IMG/VR virus record: IMGVR_UViG_3300010885_040938
Coordinates: 1 to 26,608 of that record
DNA from: a virus
Strand: one strand, 5' to 3'
DNA length: 26,608 nucleotides
Shown: positions 11-7,842 of the stretch, in pieces
How positions within the stretch are numbered: position 1 is the stretch's first letter
How the letters are laid out: each line of letters begins with the position of its first letter
The notes under the pieces: model-generated
What the model was told of the DNA's origin: nothing
The model's input: the letters and a program-made list of their open reading frames with translations, nothing else
Databases searched by the model: none
Position numbers and translations under genes: made by a program

Positions 11-664
11 ATGAAGCATAATGGGGCTAAGGTGTGCGTGATTTACCGCACACTCCCCGGAGATGCTTTTGGTGCATTAGTAGTTGGGACTTCTAGTCTT
101 AACGAGTTGCACCATAATGCACTAATGGTTGAAGTTGAATCTGCTTTAGGGCAGCAGGCTAACGAGTTTGGCGATCATATTTCAAATCGTTTCTTCCAGG
201 ACGGTGCTAATATCTTAGAATCTTTGCACTTAAATGGCAAGTTAAAGAGAGTAGCAACTGCTGAAGTAATCATGACTCCAACTATGAGTGACGAAGTCAG
301 TCTAGACGAGCTCAATGTAATGATTGCAGAACAGAAGGGTATTACTTTAGACGAGCTATCCATTAAGAGCGATATGCCACATATGCAGAGAAAGACCAAT
401 GTTCAGGAAGTTCCTATCAAGGATCACACGGGCAATCATTCTCGTGTTCCAGAAAAGCAGAAGGAATATCCTGAGATCAAGAAGGAGTCTCCATCTAATC
501 TTAAGGCAACTGAGTTGTCTTCGGCTAGCGATTTGAGGAATGAAGCTAATCGACTTCTTATGGAAGCTGAAAAACTAAAGAAAATGGCAGATGAGCTAGA
601 GCCACCTAAGAAGAAGAGCAGTGCCAAGACAAAACAAAAAAATACTGAACCAGAACATAATTGA
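11..664 (+). CDS. Conserved-looking hypothetical phage protein with charged C-terminal tail
   Basis: I do not recognise a named family for this 217-residue protein. The N-terminal half (about 1-120) looks like a compact mixed alpha/beta domain. The segment around 125-175 is polar and low in complexity. Residues about 177-195 could form a short amphipathic helix or coiled coil, and the protein ends in a lysine-rich tail. There is no signal peptide or membrane segment. The ATG at 11 is preceded by AGGAAAG, a Shine-Dalgarno-like sequence only 3 bases away. The frame is open back to base 2, so a start upstream of the window cannot be excluded. Its last 44 bases overlap the next gene, which suggests co-transcription. 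No function is claimed. Confidence 0.75.
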   Translation: MKHNGAKVCVIYRTLPGDAFGALVVGTSSLNELHHNALMVEVESALGQQANEFGDHISNRFFQDGANILESLHLNGKLKRVATAEVIMTPTMSDEVSLDELNVMIAEQKGITLDELSIKSDMPHMQRKTNVQEVPIKDHTGNHSRVPEKQKEYPEIKKESPSNLKATELSSASDLRNEANRLLMEAEKLKKMADELEPPKKKSSAKTKQKNTEPEHN

Positions 665-941
665 TCAGTGGCCTGAAATATTCTCAGATATAGATCTTTC
701 TTCCATACCGTTAGAATACTTACATAATGTAGTAATAACGTTTAAGGATGGAAATCAATGGGATGTGGTACTGAAGAAAAAAGATAGAGAATTAATGAAC
801 GGAAATCTTCCGAAGGAACTCACTGACCTTTTTACTAATTACGAAAAGGACATAGCCAACGTAGATTTCCGTTTAGACATTCCGCAAATCAAAAGAGATG
901 TAACTAAATCTACTAAGAGATTCTTAAAAGGTAAGAAGTAA
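621..941 (+). CDS. Small hypothetical protein, GTG start
   Basis: Unknown 106-residue protein, acidic in the middle and basic at the C-terminus, with no cysteine cluster, membrane segment or signal peptide. The only start that gives the whole conserved-looking region is the GTG at 621, which overlaps the previous gene by 44 bases. AAGAAGAG just upstream could act as a weak ribosome binding site, but spacing is short. The next in-frame ATG would remove more than half the protein. The gene ends inside a hairpin at 929-951 and runs 18 bases into the 3' end of the opposing gene. It is probably the last gene of the plus-strand unit entering from the left. Confidence 0.65.
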   Translation: MPRQNKKILNQNIIDQWPEIFSDIDLSSIPLEYLHNVVITFKDGNQWDVVLKKKDRELMNGNLPKELTDLFTNYEKDIANVDFRLDIPQIKRDVTKSTKRFLKGKK

Positions 942-3827: not shown

Positions 3828-5173
3828 TATTTTACTCTATTCTTAAACTCAATTAATTCTGGAAAGGTTTTATTAAAATCAGTGCCGCGGCGGTGATCAT
3901 ACTCAGTTACAAACAAACAAAAATCTTTATAATCTCTTTCAAATATCTTTTCCGAAATCGTATGTGTTTTTAATAAATTACATAACATACGCATCCTTTC
4001 CAAATCAGATTGATAAAGCATTGCATAATGCCCCTCGGTTTCAAACACACCGTTTTTATATTTTTCCATTATTTTTTCTAATTTATTAATCGTAGAATCT
4101 TTTAATTCTCTTGGAGCTAATCCTGGATGTAAGAATGGTGGCCAACGTAGGTAATTGATACTCAATATTAACATATTACGATCATAGGAAGTAAAATGCT
4201 TCTTTCGAAGAAACATCATATCTTCAATAAATAGATCAATCGTACTCAATGAAAGAATGTTTATAGTTGTCATTATACCCACAAAGGAATTCTTTGGTAT
4301 CCTAGAAAGTAGATCATCTAGATTAGAATACCATTCTTTATAATTTAATCCATATCTAATATATTCAGCTTGCTCATTAATAGCTTCGTTACTTGTAAAT
4401 ATCTCAACTGATTTAATACGAGGAGCTATCCTATTGATAAATCCGATTAATTTTTCTATCAATTCTTTTGGAACATTCAAATTTGTGTTAATGCCCAATG
4501 ATAGATTAGGATTTAAATCAGGATCATTTTCTAATTTTTCTAATAGACTCCAAACATCTTTGCTCAACAATGGCTCACCACCTGTTAATCTTAGATTGTT
4601 TAAATTTTTTGATAATTCAGGCCACCATTTCCAAAATGCCTCAACATATGGATTATATTCATTATGATTATACGTAGGTCTAGAATTTCCTGTATTATGT
4701 GATGTTGGATAGGTGCCAAATTGCTTTATCTCTTCGGCCCATTTGCTGCTTATGTCTGGGGTACAATAAGCACATTTAAAATTACAAACATTAGAAAAAC
4801 TAATTTCTAAATAAGAAGGATTAATATCACGTGTACCCGATGCTAAAATCTTTGGAACATTGGGCCAGGCCCAGGGCTCTGAAGTTTTAAAATATCTGTC
4901 ACTAACATTTCCCATGTCTTCGACTTTCCAGCAATAATCACACTCACTAGGGCGTTCGCCGTTTAACATTTTCCTCATTTGATCTTTTTTGAACTGAGTA
5001 TTATGTAACGCTTTATAGTTTTCCTTTATTTCTTCTAAAGGAATCTTATGGGGCACAGGATGATGGCAACTATGATTAAATCCAGTTTGGAGATACAATG
5101 TAGTTTGTACCCACTTAGCAGCACAAAATGAAGGTGAAATTTGGTTAATAAAATCTATGTGTTGTTGATCCAT
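3827..5173 (-). CDS. Twitch-type radical SAM protein, first gene of minus-strand operon
   Basis: 448 residues from the ATG at 5173. The radical SAM cluster motif CNFKCAYC (Cys130, 134, 137) is followed by GGEP (198-201), which binds the SAM methionine amino group. Before the barrel come four cysteines (Cys17, 36, 78, 81), the last pair in a P-S-E-C-x-x-C context. This matches N-terminal Twitch-domain radical SAM proteins, which carry an auxiliary iron-sulfur cluster ahead of the core. The reaction and substrate are unknown. A TTG five codons upstream is also open; neither start has a clear Shine-Dalgarno sequence. The gene leads an operon with a glycosyltransferase-like protein and two SGNH hydrolases, so a glycan substrate is a reasonable inference. 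The promoter must lie in the 92 bases shared with thyX; TTGTCA at 5217-5222 (read on the minus strand) is a candidate -35, but its -10 is poor. Confidence 0.85.
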   Translation of the reverse strand: MDQQHIDFINQISPSFCAAKWVQTTLYLQTGFNHSCHHPVPHKIPLEEIKENYKALHNTQFKKDQMRKMLNGERPSECDYCWKVEDMGNVSDRYFKTSEPWAWPNVPKILASGTRDINPSYLEISFSNVCNFKCAYCTPDISSKWAEEIKQFGTYPTSHNTGNSRPTYNHNEYNPYVEAFWKWWPELSKNLNNLRLTGGEPLLSKDVWSLLEKLENDPDLNPNLSLGINTNLNVPKELIEKLIGFINRIAPRIKSVEIFTSNEAINEQAEYIRYGLNYKEWYSNLDDLLSRIPKNSFVGIMTTINILSLSTIDLFIEDMMFLRKKHFTSYDRNMLILSINYLRWPPFLHPGLAPRELKDSTINKLEKIMEKYKNGVFETEGHYAMLYQSDLERMRMLCNLLKTHTISEKIFERDYKDFCLFVTEYDHRRGTDFNKTFPELIEFKNRVK

Positions 5174-5216
5174 AAAATTAATTATCAAAAAATACGCATA
5201 GAATTATTTTTTTATT

Positions 5217-5244
5217 TTGACAAATGCGTAAATTATGCTATTAT
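5217..5244 (+). promoter_or_regulatory. Sigma-70-type promoter with extended -10, upstream of thyX
   Basis: TTGACA at 5217-5222 is a perfect -35. TATTAT at 5239-5244 is preceded by TGC, giving an extended -10 with a 16-base spacer. The predicted start lies near 5251, and AGAGGA (5254-5259) sits 6 bases before the thyX ATG, so the leader is very short. This is host-RNA-polymerase type and suits early expression. Confidence 0.75.
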
Positions 5245-5265
5245 ACATTATAAAGAGGAAAAAAA

Positions 5266-6135
5266 ATGACATTAAGAAACGAAATCGATTTTGATGCTGA
5301 CAAATCATATGTACCTGTATTAGATCACGGGTTTGTGGGATTAGTAGATCATATGGGCAGTGATGATGCTATCGTGAGAGCAGCCCGAGTTAGCTACGGT
5401 GAAGGCACTAAGAAAGTACAGGGTGATCGCGGATTGATCCGCTATCTGATGCGCCACGAGCATACTACTCCTTTTGAAATGTGCGAAGTAAAATTCCATA
5501 TCAAGCTCCCTATCTTTGTGATGAGGCAGCTAGTTAGACATAGGACAGCGAGTTTAAATGAATATTCGGCCCGTTACTCGGTTATTACCGACGAATTCTA
5601 TATACCCGAACCGCAGAACCTCAAACCTCAAAGTACAACCAATAAGCAGGGCAGAGAAGGTGAACTTGATGACATCCAAAGACAACACGTCATTGACGAT
5701 ATGCTCGGAGCGTGGGATTACAACTATGAGCTCTATGAACGCCATATCAACGATTTTGGCCTGGCTAGAGAAACTGCTCGTGCGATCCTCCCGGTAGGTG
5801 GATATACTGAGTGCTATTGGAAGGCTAACCTAAAGAACTTCTTACATATGGCTCGTCTACGTATGGATAGCCACGCACAGTGGGAGATACAGGAATTTGC
5901 CTGTGCTATGTACAATTTAGCTAGACCACATTTCCCTTTAGCTTGCGAGGCATTTGAAGATTATGCTGTAGACTCTGTTAAGGTTAGCAAACTTGAAATA
6001 TCTCTACTAAAGAAGTTAATTAGCAAAGAAAAATGGGTTGATCTACTTGAAGATTTCCGTAGCGAGGACGGGATCGCTAAAAAGTTTGATCTTAGCAAAC
6101 GCGAGCTAGATGAATTTAAATCGAAGTGGTTATAA
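5266..6135 (+). CDS. thyX: FAD-dependent thymidylate synthase ThyX
   Basis: 289 residues, about normal or slightly long for ThyX. It makes dTMP from dUMP using methylene-tetrahydrofolate, FAD and NADPH. The family signature RHR-x7-S is intact: Arg91-His92-Arg93 and Ser101 in RHRTASLNEYS. The C-terminal segment with ARAILP and the following YWKANLKNFLHMARLR corresponds to the dUMP- and FAD-binding region of ThyX. The ATG at 5266 has AGAGGA 6 bases upstream and its own strong promoter. Marine cyanophages and other T4-like phages often carry thyX to supply thymidine nucleotides for replication. It sits alone between a radical SAM operon and the fibre gene, and read-through from it would reach the hairpin at 6155-6188. 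Confidence 0.97.
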   Translation: MTLRNEIDFDADKSYVPVLDHGFVGLVDHMGSDDAIVRAARVSYGEGTKKVQGDRGLIRYLMRHEHTTPFEMCEVKFHIKLPIFVMRQLVRHRTASLNEYSARYSVITDEFYIPEPQNLKPQSTTNKQGREGELDDIQRQHVIDDMLGAWDYNYELYERHINDFGLARETARAILPVGGYTECYWKANLKNFLHMARLRMDSHAQWEIQEFACAMYNLARPHFPLACEAFEDYAVDSVKVSKLEISLLKKLISKEKWVDLLEDFRSEDGIAKKFDLSKRELDEFKSKWL

Positions 6136-6154
6136 CACTGCCTGATTACGATTG

Positions 6155-6188
6155 CTCCTGGATAAATACTAAAAGATATTACCAGGAG
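6155..6188 (+). promoter_or_regulatory. Hairpin that can mask the tail-fibre ribosome binding site
   Basis: CTCCTGG (6155-6161) pairs perfectly with CCAGGAG (6182-6188); a G-U pair can extend the stem by one. The 3' arm contains AGGAG, the Shine-Dalgarno sequence 7 bases before the ATG at 6196. A late promoter box lies at the start of the 20-base loop, so a transcript from it would lack the 5' arm. T4 genes e, soc, 49 and I-TevI use this arrangement to block translation of early read-through RNA while allowing it from late RNA. Confidence 0.72.
6161..6168 (+). promoter_or_regulatory. T4-type late promoter box GATAAATA
   Basis: GATAAATA matches the T4 late consensus TATAAATA at seven of eight bases and the NATAAATA form described for marine T4-like phages. 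By analogy with T4 the start would be near 6174, leaving a leader of about 22 bases with AGGAG exposed. It is the only such box I found on the plus strand, and it precedes the only evident virion gene. Confidence 0.7.
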
Positions 6189-6195
6189 TTATTCT

Positions 6196-7287
6196 ATGTC
6201 AATACAATTAAGGCGGGGAACTAATGCTGAAAGAGTCCTTATTACTCCTTCCGAAGGAGAGCTAATTTATACTACCGATACTAAGATATTGTTTGTAGGT
6301 GATGGTTCAACATTAGGAGGAAACCAAGTTTCACTCTCAGCAACTGGTGTTTTAAAAGGTCAAATAAATGGTGATTTAACCCTTACCCCGTACAAGATAG
6401 CAGGTGGTGGAATTTCTATCAATAGTGCCACAGGATCAATAGCTGCTTCGGCGTTTAATGGTGTCTTTAACGGATCATTGGGTTCAAATTTAAATATTAA
6501 CACACGATCAATAACAAATGGTGGTAATTTAACAATAAATGGAACAACAGGAGCTATTACTGCTGTATCTTTTATTGGAACACATACAGGCAACGTAACA
6601 GGAAATGTTACTGGAAATCTTACAGGTAATGTTAATACTGGTCTAATGACGATTAACGGCAGTACTATATCTAGTTCTGATTCTTTTACATCTGCTGATA
6701 ATCATAGTATTGGTAGGATACATATACAAGATTATAATCAACTTATTGTTAGTAACTCCGATGGATCGATCCCATACAGTCAAATAAACAGCATTACACT
6801 TGGTCGTGAATGCGCATATATCGAACATAGAGTAAATCGAGGTACATTAGCATCTCCTGCAAGAATACAAGCTGGCGATGTTCTGCTAAATTACAGAGTT
6901 AATGCGCACGACGGTTCAAATTATCTTTTATCTAGTGCTATACAGTTTCAAATAGATAATGCCGCTACCGTTTCGACCGGGCATACTCCTGGTAAACTTA
7001 TATTTGCCAATATGATAGATACTAATATTGTTAATGCAAAAGTATTAAGTTTTGATTCATTTGGAAGATTAGGAGTTAACAAATCTGATGCTACTGAAAC
7101 ATTAGATGTTAACGGTACTGGTAAATTTTCAGGTTATGTAGTAGTTGGAAACTATAGTATTTCGCAAAGAAACGCACTAACTCCAATAAACGGAATGATA
7201 ATATACAATAGAATTTCAAATAGATTCCAAGGATATCAAAACGGAGCTTGGATTAATCTAGATAACGGAACACCAGTTAACCCGTAA
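6196..7287 (+). CDS. Tail fibre / receptor-binding-like structural protein
   Basis: 363 residues. The N-terminus (MSIQLRRGTNAER, then EGELIYTTDTKILFVGDGST) matches the attachment domain seen at the start of phage major tropism determinants and many marine phage fibres. The middle is rich in Gly, Asn, Ser and Thr with beta-repeat character, including four T-G-N-[VL] units at residues 131-146. The C-terminal part (about 297-363, with ETLDVNGTGKFSG and a final FQGYQNGAWINLD) resembles the end segment of short fibres before or instead of a chaperone domain. No S74 intramolecular chaperone domain is present. The start is fixed by AGGAG 7 bases upstream. A late promoter and the masking hairpin just upstream indicate late expression, as expected for a virion protein. 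Confidence 0.82.
   Translation: MSIQLRRGTNAERVLITPSEGELIYTTDTKILFVGDGSTLGGNQVSLSATGVLKGQINGDLTLTPYKIAGGGISINSATGSIAASAFNGVFNGSLGSNLNINTRSITNGGNLTINGTTGAITAVSFIGTHTGNVTGNVTGNLTGNVNTGLMTINGSTISSSDSFTSADNHSIGRIHIQDYNQLIVSNSDGSIPYSQINSITLGRECAYIEHRVNRGTLASPARIQAGDVLLNYRVNAHDGSNYLLSSAIQFQIDNAATVSTGHTPGKLIFANMIDTNIVNAKVLSFDSFGRLGVNKSDATETLDVNGTGKFSGYVVVGNYSISQRNALTPINGMIIYNRISNRFQGYQNGAWINLDNGTPVNP
6586..6633 (+). repeat. Four tandem 12-base units encoding T-G-N-V/L
   Basis: Four in-frame copies of a 12-base unit (ACAGGAAATGTT and variants) encode TGNV, TGNV, TGNL, TGNV in the fibre protein. The copies differ mainly at third codon positions. Such units can expand or contract by slippage or recombination. 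Confidence 0.85.
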
Positions 7288-7842
7288 TTACCATCTAGGA
7301 TAACTGTTAAGAGATTTATAAAATTTCTTAACATTTAATTTCCAAAATGTTTGCGTAGTTCCGCGATATTCCTTTTCGCCAGTATTTGTTAATAGGCCTG
7401 CTTCGGCGTGAGTTGGACAATATATCCTATGTACCAATCTTTGGCTAGCCACAGGTGATTCGTTCGTTGTAATATAGAGATCCTTATCTATACCTGCCCA
7501 TTCTATGCAAGCAGGAATATAATATTGATCTGTAAAGTTTTGATGCTTGCGTATAGCATTGTTACGTGTTGCCATACCATGTTCACCTGCAATCTCAGCT
7601 AAAACACAATTACGGGCACATATCCTATAAGCATTTGGACCCATTATCTCTAAACTATGACATCCAACTGCGCCAACTGGTCTTCCATTATAATGTAATA
7701 TCCATATTTGTTTTTGTTTTTCATTATTGAAACAATCAATCATGGCTTTTTGGCTAGCATTATTTAAAAATCCCTTCTTTAAAGCAAGATCATAAAATTC
7801 AGTTAGATCCATTTCAGAAGACCAAGATATCATTTCGTACAC
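7288..7842 (-). CDS. GNAT-like acetyltransferase (tentative)
   Basis: 184 residues. WILHYNGRPVGAVGCHSL (about 47-64) has the form of the GNAT beta3-turn-beta4 hairpin, where a strand ending in x-G-x-x-V-G is typical. A clear acetyl-CoA-binding R/Q-x-x-G-x-G/A loop is not obvious; AGEHGMATRN (about 89-98) is the nearest candidate. If correct, it would acetylate an amine on a small molecule, sugar or protein. The start is a GTG at 7842, supported by GGAG 7 bases upstream; an in-frame ATG three codons later is less well spaced. The gene ends directly against the fibre gene, with stop codons side by side. Close packing with the fibre gene does not by itself show a link. Confidence 0.42.
   Translation of the reverse strand: MYEMISWSSEMDLTEFYDLALKKGFLNNASQKAMIDCFNNEKQKQIWILHYNGRPVGAVGCHSLEIMGPNAYRICARNCVLAEIAGEHGMATRNNAIRKHQNFTDQYYIPACIEWAGIDKDLYITTNESPVASQRLVHRIYCPTHAEAGLLTNTGEKEYRGTTQTFWKLNVKKFYKSLNSYPRW

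Follow-up and report, generated by a model that had tools for sequence, protein, structure and literature searches.

The hairpin located between thyX and the adjacent fibre gene in the 26,608-nt stretch of viral DNA analyzed here (the window) is very probably a translational delay lock on the Mtd_N fibre, of the type described for gene e and I-TevI of bacteriophage T4. In this model, transcription from a sigma-70 promoter in front of thyX (in relatives also in front of the thyX operon) would give rise to RNA that extends into the fibre gene and carries both arms of the hairpin. The helix formed in this long RNA would hide the fibre Shine-Dalgarno (SD) sequence, and little fibre would be made. 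RNA started from the late promoter motif GATAAATA would lack the 5' arm and leave the SD open, and fibre synthesis would wait for a gp55-type late sigma factor. Where the RNAs start, when thyX is transcribed and how strongly translation is blocked are inferred in this scheme. In T4, hairpins that are shut early and open late are mainly known for lysozyme and selfish endonucleases, with soc as the only virion gene in the reviews consulted. A receptor-binding fibre in uncultured, T4-like environmental phages appears to be under the same kind of control. While the mechanism is already known, its use on a fibre gene and in these phage lineages is new within the open-licence literature searched.

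Organization of the thyX-Fibre Junction

The thyX gene (5266..6135, plus strand), which would be the upstream cistron on the read-through RNA, encodes a flavin-dependent thymidylate synthase (Pfam Thy1, 3.4e-54; phrog_85) and is followed after 60 nt by the fibre gene (6196..7287, plus strand), whose reading frame is intact. The 363-aa product exhibits an Mtd_N (major tropism determinant N-terminal) domain (Pfam Mtd_N, 1.1e-11; phrog_9648 tail protein, 2.4e-4) and is likely a receptor-binding fibre. No relatives of the whole fibre protein were found in named phages; its N-terminus yielded weak Mtd_N matches in such phages, and a match in HTVC008M sits in a different setting.

On the plus strand, the 5' arm of the hairpin, GCTCCTGG (6154..6161), starts 18 nt past the thyX stop codon, and the 3' arm, CCAGGAGT (6182..6189), contains the SD AGGAG (6184..6188), 7 nt 5' of the fibre ATG at 6196. 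Between CTCCTGG (6155-6161) and CCAGGAG (6182-6188), pairing is perfect over seven Watson-Crick pairs; a G-U pair (6154/6189) extends this stem to 8 bp, and the loop measures 20 nt. The late promoter motif GATAAATA, of the NATAAATA type, is situated at 6161..6168 on the same strand, and the predicted late transcription start, placed at 6174 (plus strand) by T4 late-promoter spacing, lies 13 nt downstream of the end of the 5' arm. The coordinates given by the initial annotation were all correct on rechecking, which covered the arms, GATAAATA, AGGAG and the fibre ATG. Its placement of the promoter inside the loop holds for most of the motif, but not for the first base, as G6161 is at once the last base of the 5' arm and the first base of GATAAATA. 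A sigma-70-like match on the minus strand (6173-6202, TTGACA-18-TATCTT, 10/12) overlaps the hairpin and is directed backwards into thyX; it is probably due to chance.

Predicted Folding of Read-Through and Late RNA

The window hairpin exceeds chance. RNA comprising positions 6150-6198 folds at -12.9 kcal/mol, compared to -5.5 +/- 2.2 kcal/mol in dinucleotide shuffles, none of which was as good (0/200). When the 28 bases 5' of the motif were shuffled, about 0.7% of the shuffles gave an SD-overlapping stem that was at least as good (p = 0.0066). For the isolated hairpin, -12.2 kcal/mol is predicted. Rfam models gave no match to positions 5000-7400 up to E = 1. The predicted late RNA (6174-6225) shows no significant fold (z = +0.58), and the mean unpaired probability of the SD is predicted to rise from 0.00 in the read-through RNA to 0.42 in the late RNA. 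The reading of the hairpin given by the initial annotation is supported overall. In the late RNA of the window, the predicted opening of the SD is partial. Among the relatives, the predicted gain of SD opening in late RNA is small for L093 and L095, and the L084 stem spans just part of AGGAG, which has an unpaired probability of 0.57 in the read-through RNA.

Putative Early Promoter and Read-Through

A thyX promoter had been proposed at 5217, where a sigma-70-type TTGACA-16-TATTAT match (5217..5244, plus strand, 11/12 matches), presumed early, is located 5' of thyX and represents the best sigma-70 match in its region. The window and nine relatives share a TTGACA-16/17-TATTAT promoter in front of thyX or its operon, with TATACT as a variant in L098; L094, owing to insufficient coverage, and L137 were left out of this survey. 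The promoter is found directly 5' of thyX in the window (-49), L087 (-50) and L088 (-34), and 2.7-2.85 kb 5' of it, in front of the operon, in L084, L085, L086, L093, L095, L097 and L098. Besides thyX, with which it ends, the operon comprises genes for a VWA-type metallopeptidase and for small proteins. Promoters of this quality occur one to four times per contig, compared to 0.0-0.3 expected. ATAAATA is absent between promoter and thyX in the window and the nine relatives surveyed, and it is present inside thyX solely in L088, 85 nt 5' of the L088 fibre promoter. No terminator was called between thyX and the fibre gene of the window. Given a strong sigma-70-type promoter and the lack of a late motif between promoter and thyX, early read-through into the fibre gene appears plausible; the sigma-70 form of the TTGACA-type promoters suggests that they are active early.

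ATAAATA as a Putative Late Promoter

The motif NATAAATA was identified as the late promoter of cyanophage S-PM2 and is present in other cyanophages (PMC2984593). For motif statistics, the window and 20 related contigs were used and all 21 heptamers of the composition A5T2 were compared. ATAAATA is the most depleted of these heptamers, with 256 copies observed and 613 expected (0.42), and 96 of the 256 copies (38%) are located shortly 5' of an SD and an open gene, compared to 2-12% for the other heptamers. In the relative G004 (145 kb), the motif is situated 5' of a baseplate wedge gene and of a baseplate hub gene. Genes for gp23 and for a gp55-like late sigma factor (E = 1.7e-81) are present in G004, and a gp55-like sigma was also found in the relative G019; these gp55 matches come from relatives, the window being a 26.6-kb fragment. 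Positioning of ATAAATA before late or structural genes and its avoidance elsewhere correspond to T4-like late transcription; in its distribution, the motif behaves as a late promoter in these phages.

In the window, DATAAATA occurs twice, compared to 17 +/- 4 copies expected. The second copy (4226-4233, plus strand) is located antisense within a radical-SAM gene, approximately 1 kb 5' of thyX, and RNA starting from it would likewise include both hairpin arms. Several radical-SAM and other metabolic-looking genes are distributed over both strands of the window (924-26499), which is unusual for a T4-like phage.

Conservation and Covariation of the Stem in Relatives

The relatives considered are close thyX relatives in which the same fibre type comes next, amounting to 11 non-redundant junctions including the window. 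A late motif and a stem reaching AGGAG were found at all 11 thyX-fibre junctions (each p <= 0.05), compared to a significant stem in nine of the 50 late-motif fibre genes outside such junctions (Fisher 4e-7, an optimistic value because kinship among the phages is ignored). As a refutation test of the hairpin, it had been asked whether relatives with this gene order fail to keep the two arms paired; pairing was found at 11/11 junctions, with covarying stems, and the relatives thus strongly support it. The arm pairs themselves differ: the window carries GCTCCTGG/CCAGGAGT, while relatives carry, for example, CTGGATCAGAT/ATCTGATCCAG, CCTAGATCAG/CTGATCTAGG, TCCTATATTGATAA/TTATCAATATAGGA, TCCTGGATA/TATCCAGGA or TCCTGATA/TATCAGGA, plus others. 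An exact search of viral contigs with CTCCTGGATAAATAC returned 43 scattered matches, one of which, on the L088 contig, was recognized as relevant.

The compensatory arm changes that had been suggested as a check were found as well. Across 14 leaders, two to five pair types occur at each of the positions -1 to -9 from AGGAG, with AGGAG itself constant, as is expected under selection for pairing outside the constant SD. When arms were swapped between phages, the mean stem score changed from -21.3 (own) to -14.6 (swapped) and none of 20,000 permutations was as good; the same swap in 47 other late-motif fibre genes gave -9.4 for both own and swapped arms, i.e., no excess pairing. The CTCCTGG arm of the window pairs with CAGGAG of any relative, and its own pair is not unique in the swap test. 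For the window by itself, the fold statistic consequently provides the evidence, while the covariation is a property of the set. The predicted late start lies 9-28 nt downstream of the end of the 5' arm in each of the 14 strongly paired leaders, so that late RNA would lack this arm. The longest stems (19, 17 and 15 bp) belong to L211, L064 and L055, respectively, which are phages without thyX at this site; the lock therefore probably arose more than once.

Alternative Explanations

An inverted repeat that overlaps a promoter motif might also serve as a DNA operator at which a phage or host protein represses or activates the late promoter; a precedent is T4 I-TevI, which acts as repressor of its own late promoter via an overlapping operator (PMC2988022). 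A protein site would, however, be expected to keep its sequence or spacing rather than the pairing of an SD, whereas the relatives vary in stem sequence, stem length (6-19 bp) and loop (5-40 nt) and keep the AGGAG pairing constant, which makes an operator very unlikely. Similarly small is the probability that the hairpin couples the fibre to thyX translation, with the terminating thyX ribosome opening the 5' arm and fibre being made in proportion to thyX. The 5' arm does overlap the thyX stop codon in L094 and L098, where thyX ribosomes could thus open it, and it begins 3-6 nt past the stop codon in L084, L085, L086 and L137. In the window, L087, L088, L093 and L095, however, it begins 14-21 nt past the stop codon and is probably out of the reach of a terminating ribosome. 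Furthermore, coupling leaves unexplained both the embedded late promoter and the locks of L055, L064 and L211, in which a different gene is located upstream.

The position of the hairpin shortly after the thyX stop codon would also suit a thyX terminator or a stabilizer of the mRNA end, with an incidental SD overlap. This explanation is highly unlikely: the stem is followed by GUUAUUCUAUG and not by the U-run that an intrinsic terminator has after its GC-rich stem, and no terminator was called there; moreover, each relative has its stem anchored on AGGAG, and the stem is present without thyX in L055, L064 and L211. A chance or neutral origin of the hairpin in AT-rich intergenic DNA is extremely unlikely, as the covariation, the arm-swap test and the 14-19 bp stems of several relatives argue against it, even though 47 fibre genes with the same promoter manage without a hairpin.

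Comparison to Known T4 Systems

The early transcripts of T4 e and I-TevI form a helix that hides the SD, and a late promoter immediately upstream yields RNA without the 5' strand (PMC3014915, PMC2988022). In the case of e, this structure cuts lysozyme synthesis approximately 100-fold (PMC3014915, PMC2988022). The comparison to T4 made by the initial annotation is correct with respect to these publications. Scoring of the T4 locks as positive controls, with the script used for the fibre leaders, recovered e (p 0.010) and I-TevII (p 0.013), but no simple contiguous stems for soc and 49. Two features of the e/I-TevI class can be traced at the sequence level. Pairing of the SD in upstream-initiated RNA is indicated for the fibre leader by structure prediction and covariation, and the motif and its T4 spacing would place the late promoter in a position to drop the 5' arm.

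As in T4 e, the SD of the fibre gene is predicted to be paired in the longer early transcripts, the late promoter overlaps the 5' strand, and the hairpin is kept in relatives and missing from some. The energies obtained by the same computation are nearly equal for e and the window (-12.3 and -12.2 kcal/mol), with -9.8 kcal/mol for I-TevII. Unlike e, which encodes lysozyme and is preceded by nudE, the gene concerned here encodes an Mtd_N fibre and is preceded by thyX; the stems are far more diverse and are known from sequence alone. I-TevI and I-TevII share the sequestration of the SD in read-through RNA and a late promoter in or beside the hairpin, but are homing endonucleases, in contrast to the virion-type fibre. 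For T4 soc, likewise a virion gene, and 49, sequestration of the translation start in an RNA helix has been reported (PMC3014915), whereas no simple contiguous stem was found by the scoring used here. RNA structure at the translation start of tail-related genes is also known from the T4 gene 38 and 25 leaders; these structures, however, shorten the SD-AUG distance and improve initiation, leaving the SD unhidden (PMC3014915).

Distribution and Specificity of the Proposed Lock

The lock is absent from 47 fibre genes that carry the late motif. Confinement of the lock to phages with an early promoter upstream was considered and rejected, because unlocked phages (L046, L048, L050 and L052) exhibit TTGACA-type promoters on the same operon. 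These promoters also indicate that the lock, or the delay, is not obligatory, and the earlier claim that the hairpin ties fibre synthesis "strictly" to late transcription is too strong. Locked and unlocked versions of one gene represent a natural experiment on why a phage delays a structural protein. As the arms are readable from sequence alone, they give some access to the timing of expression even in phages that cannot be cultivated.

Outside the fibre genes, two of 71 late-motif genes reach p <= 0.01, compared to 0.7 expected, indicating that the lock is selective. One is an HNH endonuclease gene (G009:C1:106935, minus strand; L189:11586-12014), in which the late motif lies beside a 9-bp SD-masking stem, GGTAGACCT/AGGTCTACC; this gene of the relative G009 is the closest match to the layout of the T4 homing endonucleases. 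The other encodes a 137-aa protein with weak likeness to a virion protein (G009:C1:56293, minus strand; L186:17960-18373; L309, L311, L312). Its late motif is situated within the loop of an SD-masking stem of 11-15 bp; this stem is conserved in L311 and L312, where its changes covary. Several unrelated stems at the Mtd_N fibre, together with those at the 137-aa gene (G009:56293, L311, L312) and the HNH endonuclease gene (G009:106935), raise the tentative and somewhat doubtful possibility of a portable, repeatedly re-evolved lock, in which new stems of differing sequence would form between late promoter and SD at virion or endonuclease genes located after early genes and would avoid premature production of a receptor-binding protein.

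A second class of hairpins in unlocked phages was considered and was not significant overall (1136/20,000 permutations, 47 fibre genes). In some unlocked fibre genes, the first 8 nt after ATAAATA are complementary to the SD-AUG spacer, with the SD in the loop, e.g., CTTGTAAC/GTTACAAG in L051 (L051:5963-6001, L060:5963-6001, L219, L248, L268, L251). Genes whose products start with MSRPKP carry a 10-13 bp hairpin just after the late motif (L051:1182-1220, L060:468-510, L184:14878-15200), whose 3' arm can include the start codon, with the SD located in its loop.

Gene Order Around thyX

In most relatives, a 106-aa gene ending in FLKRKK is located directly 5' of thyX, with overlapping stop and start codons. 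In phages without thyX, an apparent counterpart of this gene adjoins the fibre gene directly, and the arrangement suggests that thyX was inserted between the 106-aa gene and the fibre gene. In the window, the 106-aa gene (621..941, plus strand; C-terminus STKRFLKGKK) is separated from thyX by other genes, including a radical-SAM gene on the opposite strand, and thyX has its own promoter. A FLKRKK gene of 106-117 aa overlaps the thyX start (ATGA) in L084 (3631-3983), L093, L095 and others, which suggests that thyX may be translationally coupled to the FLKRKK gene.
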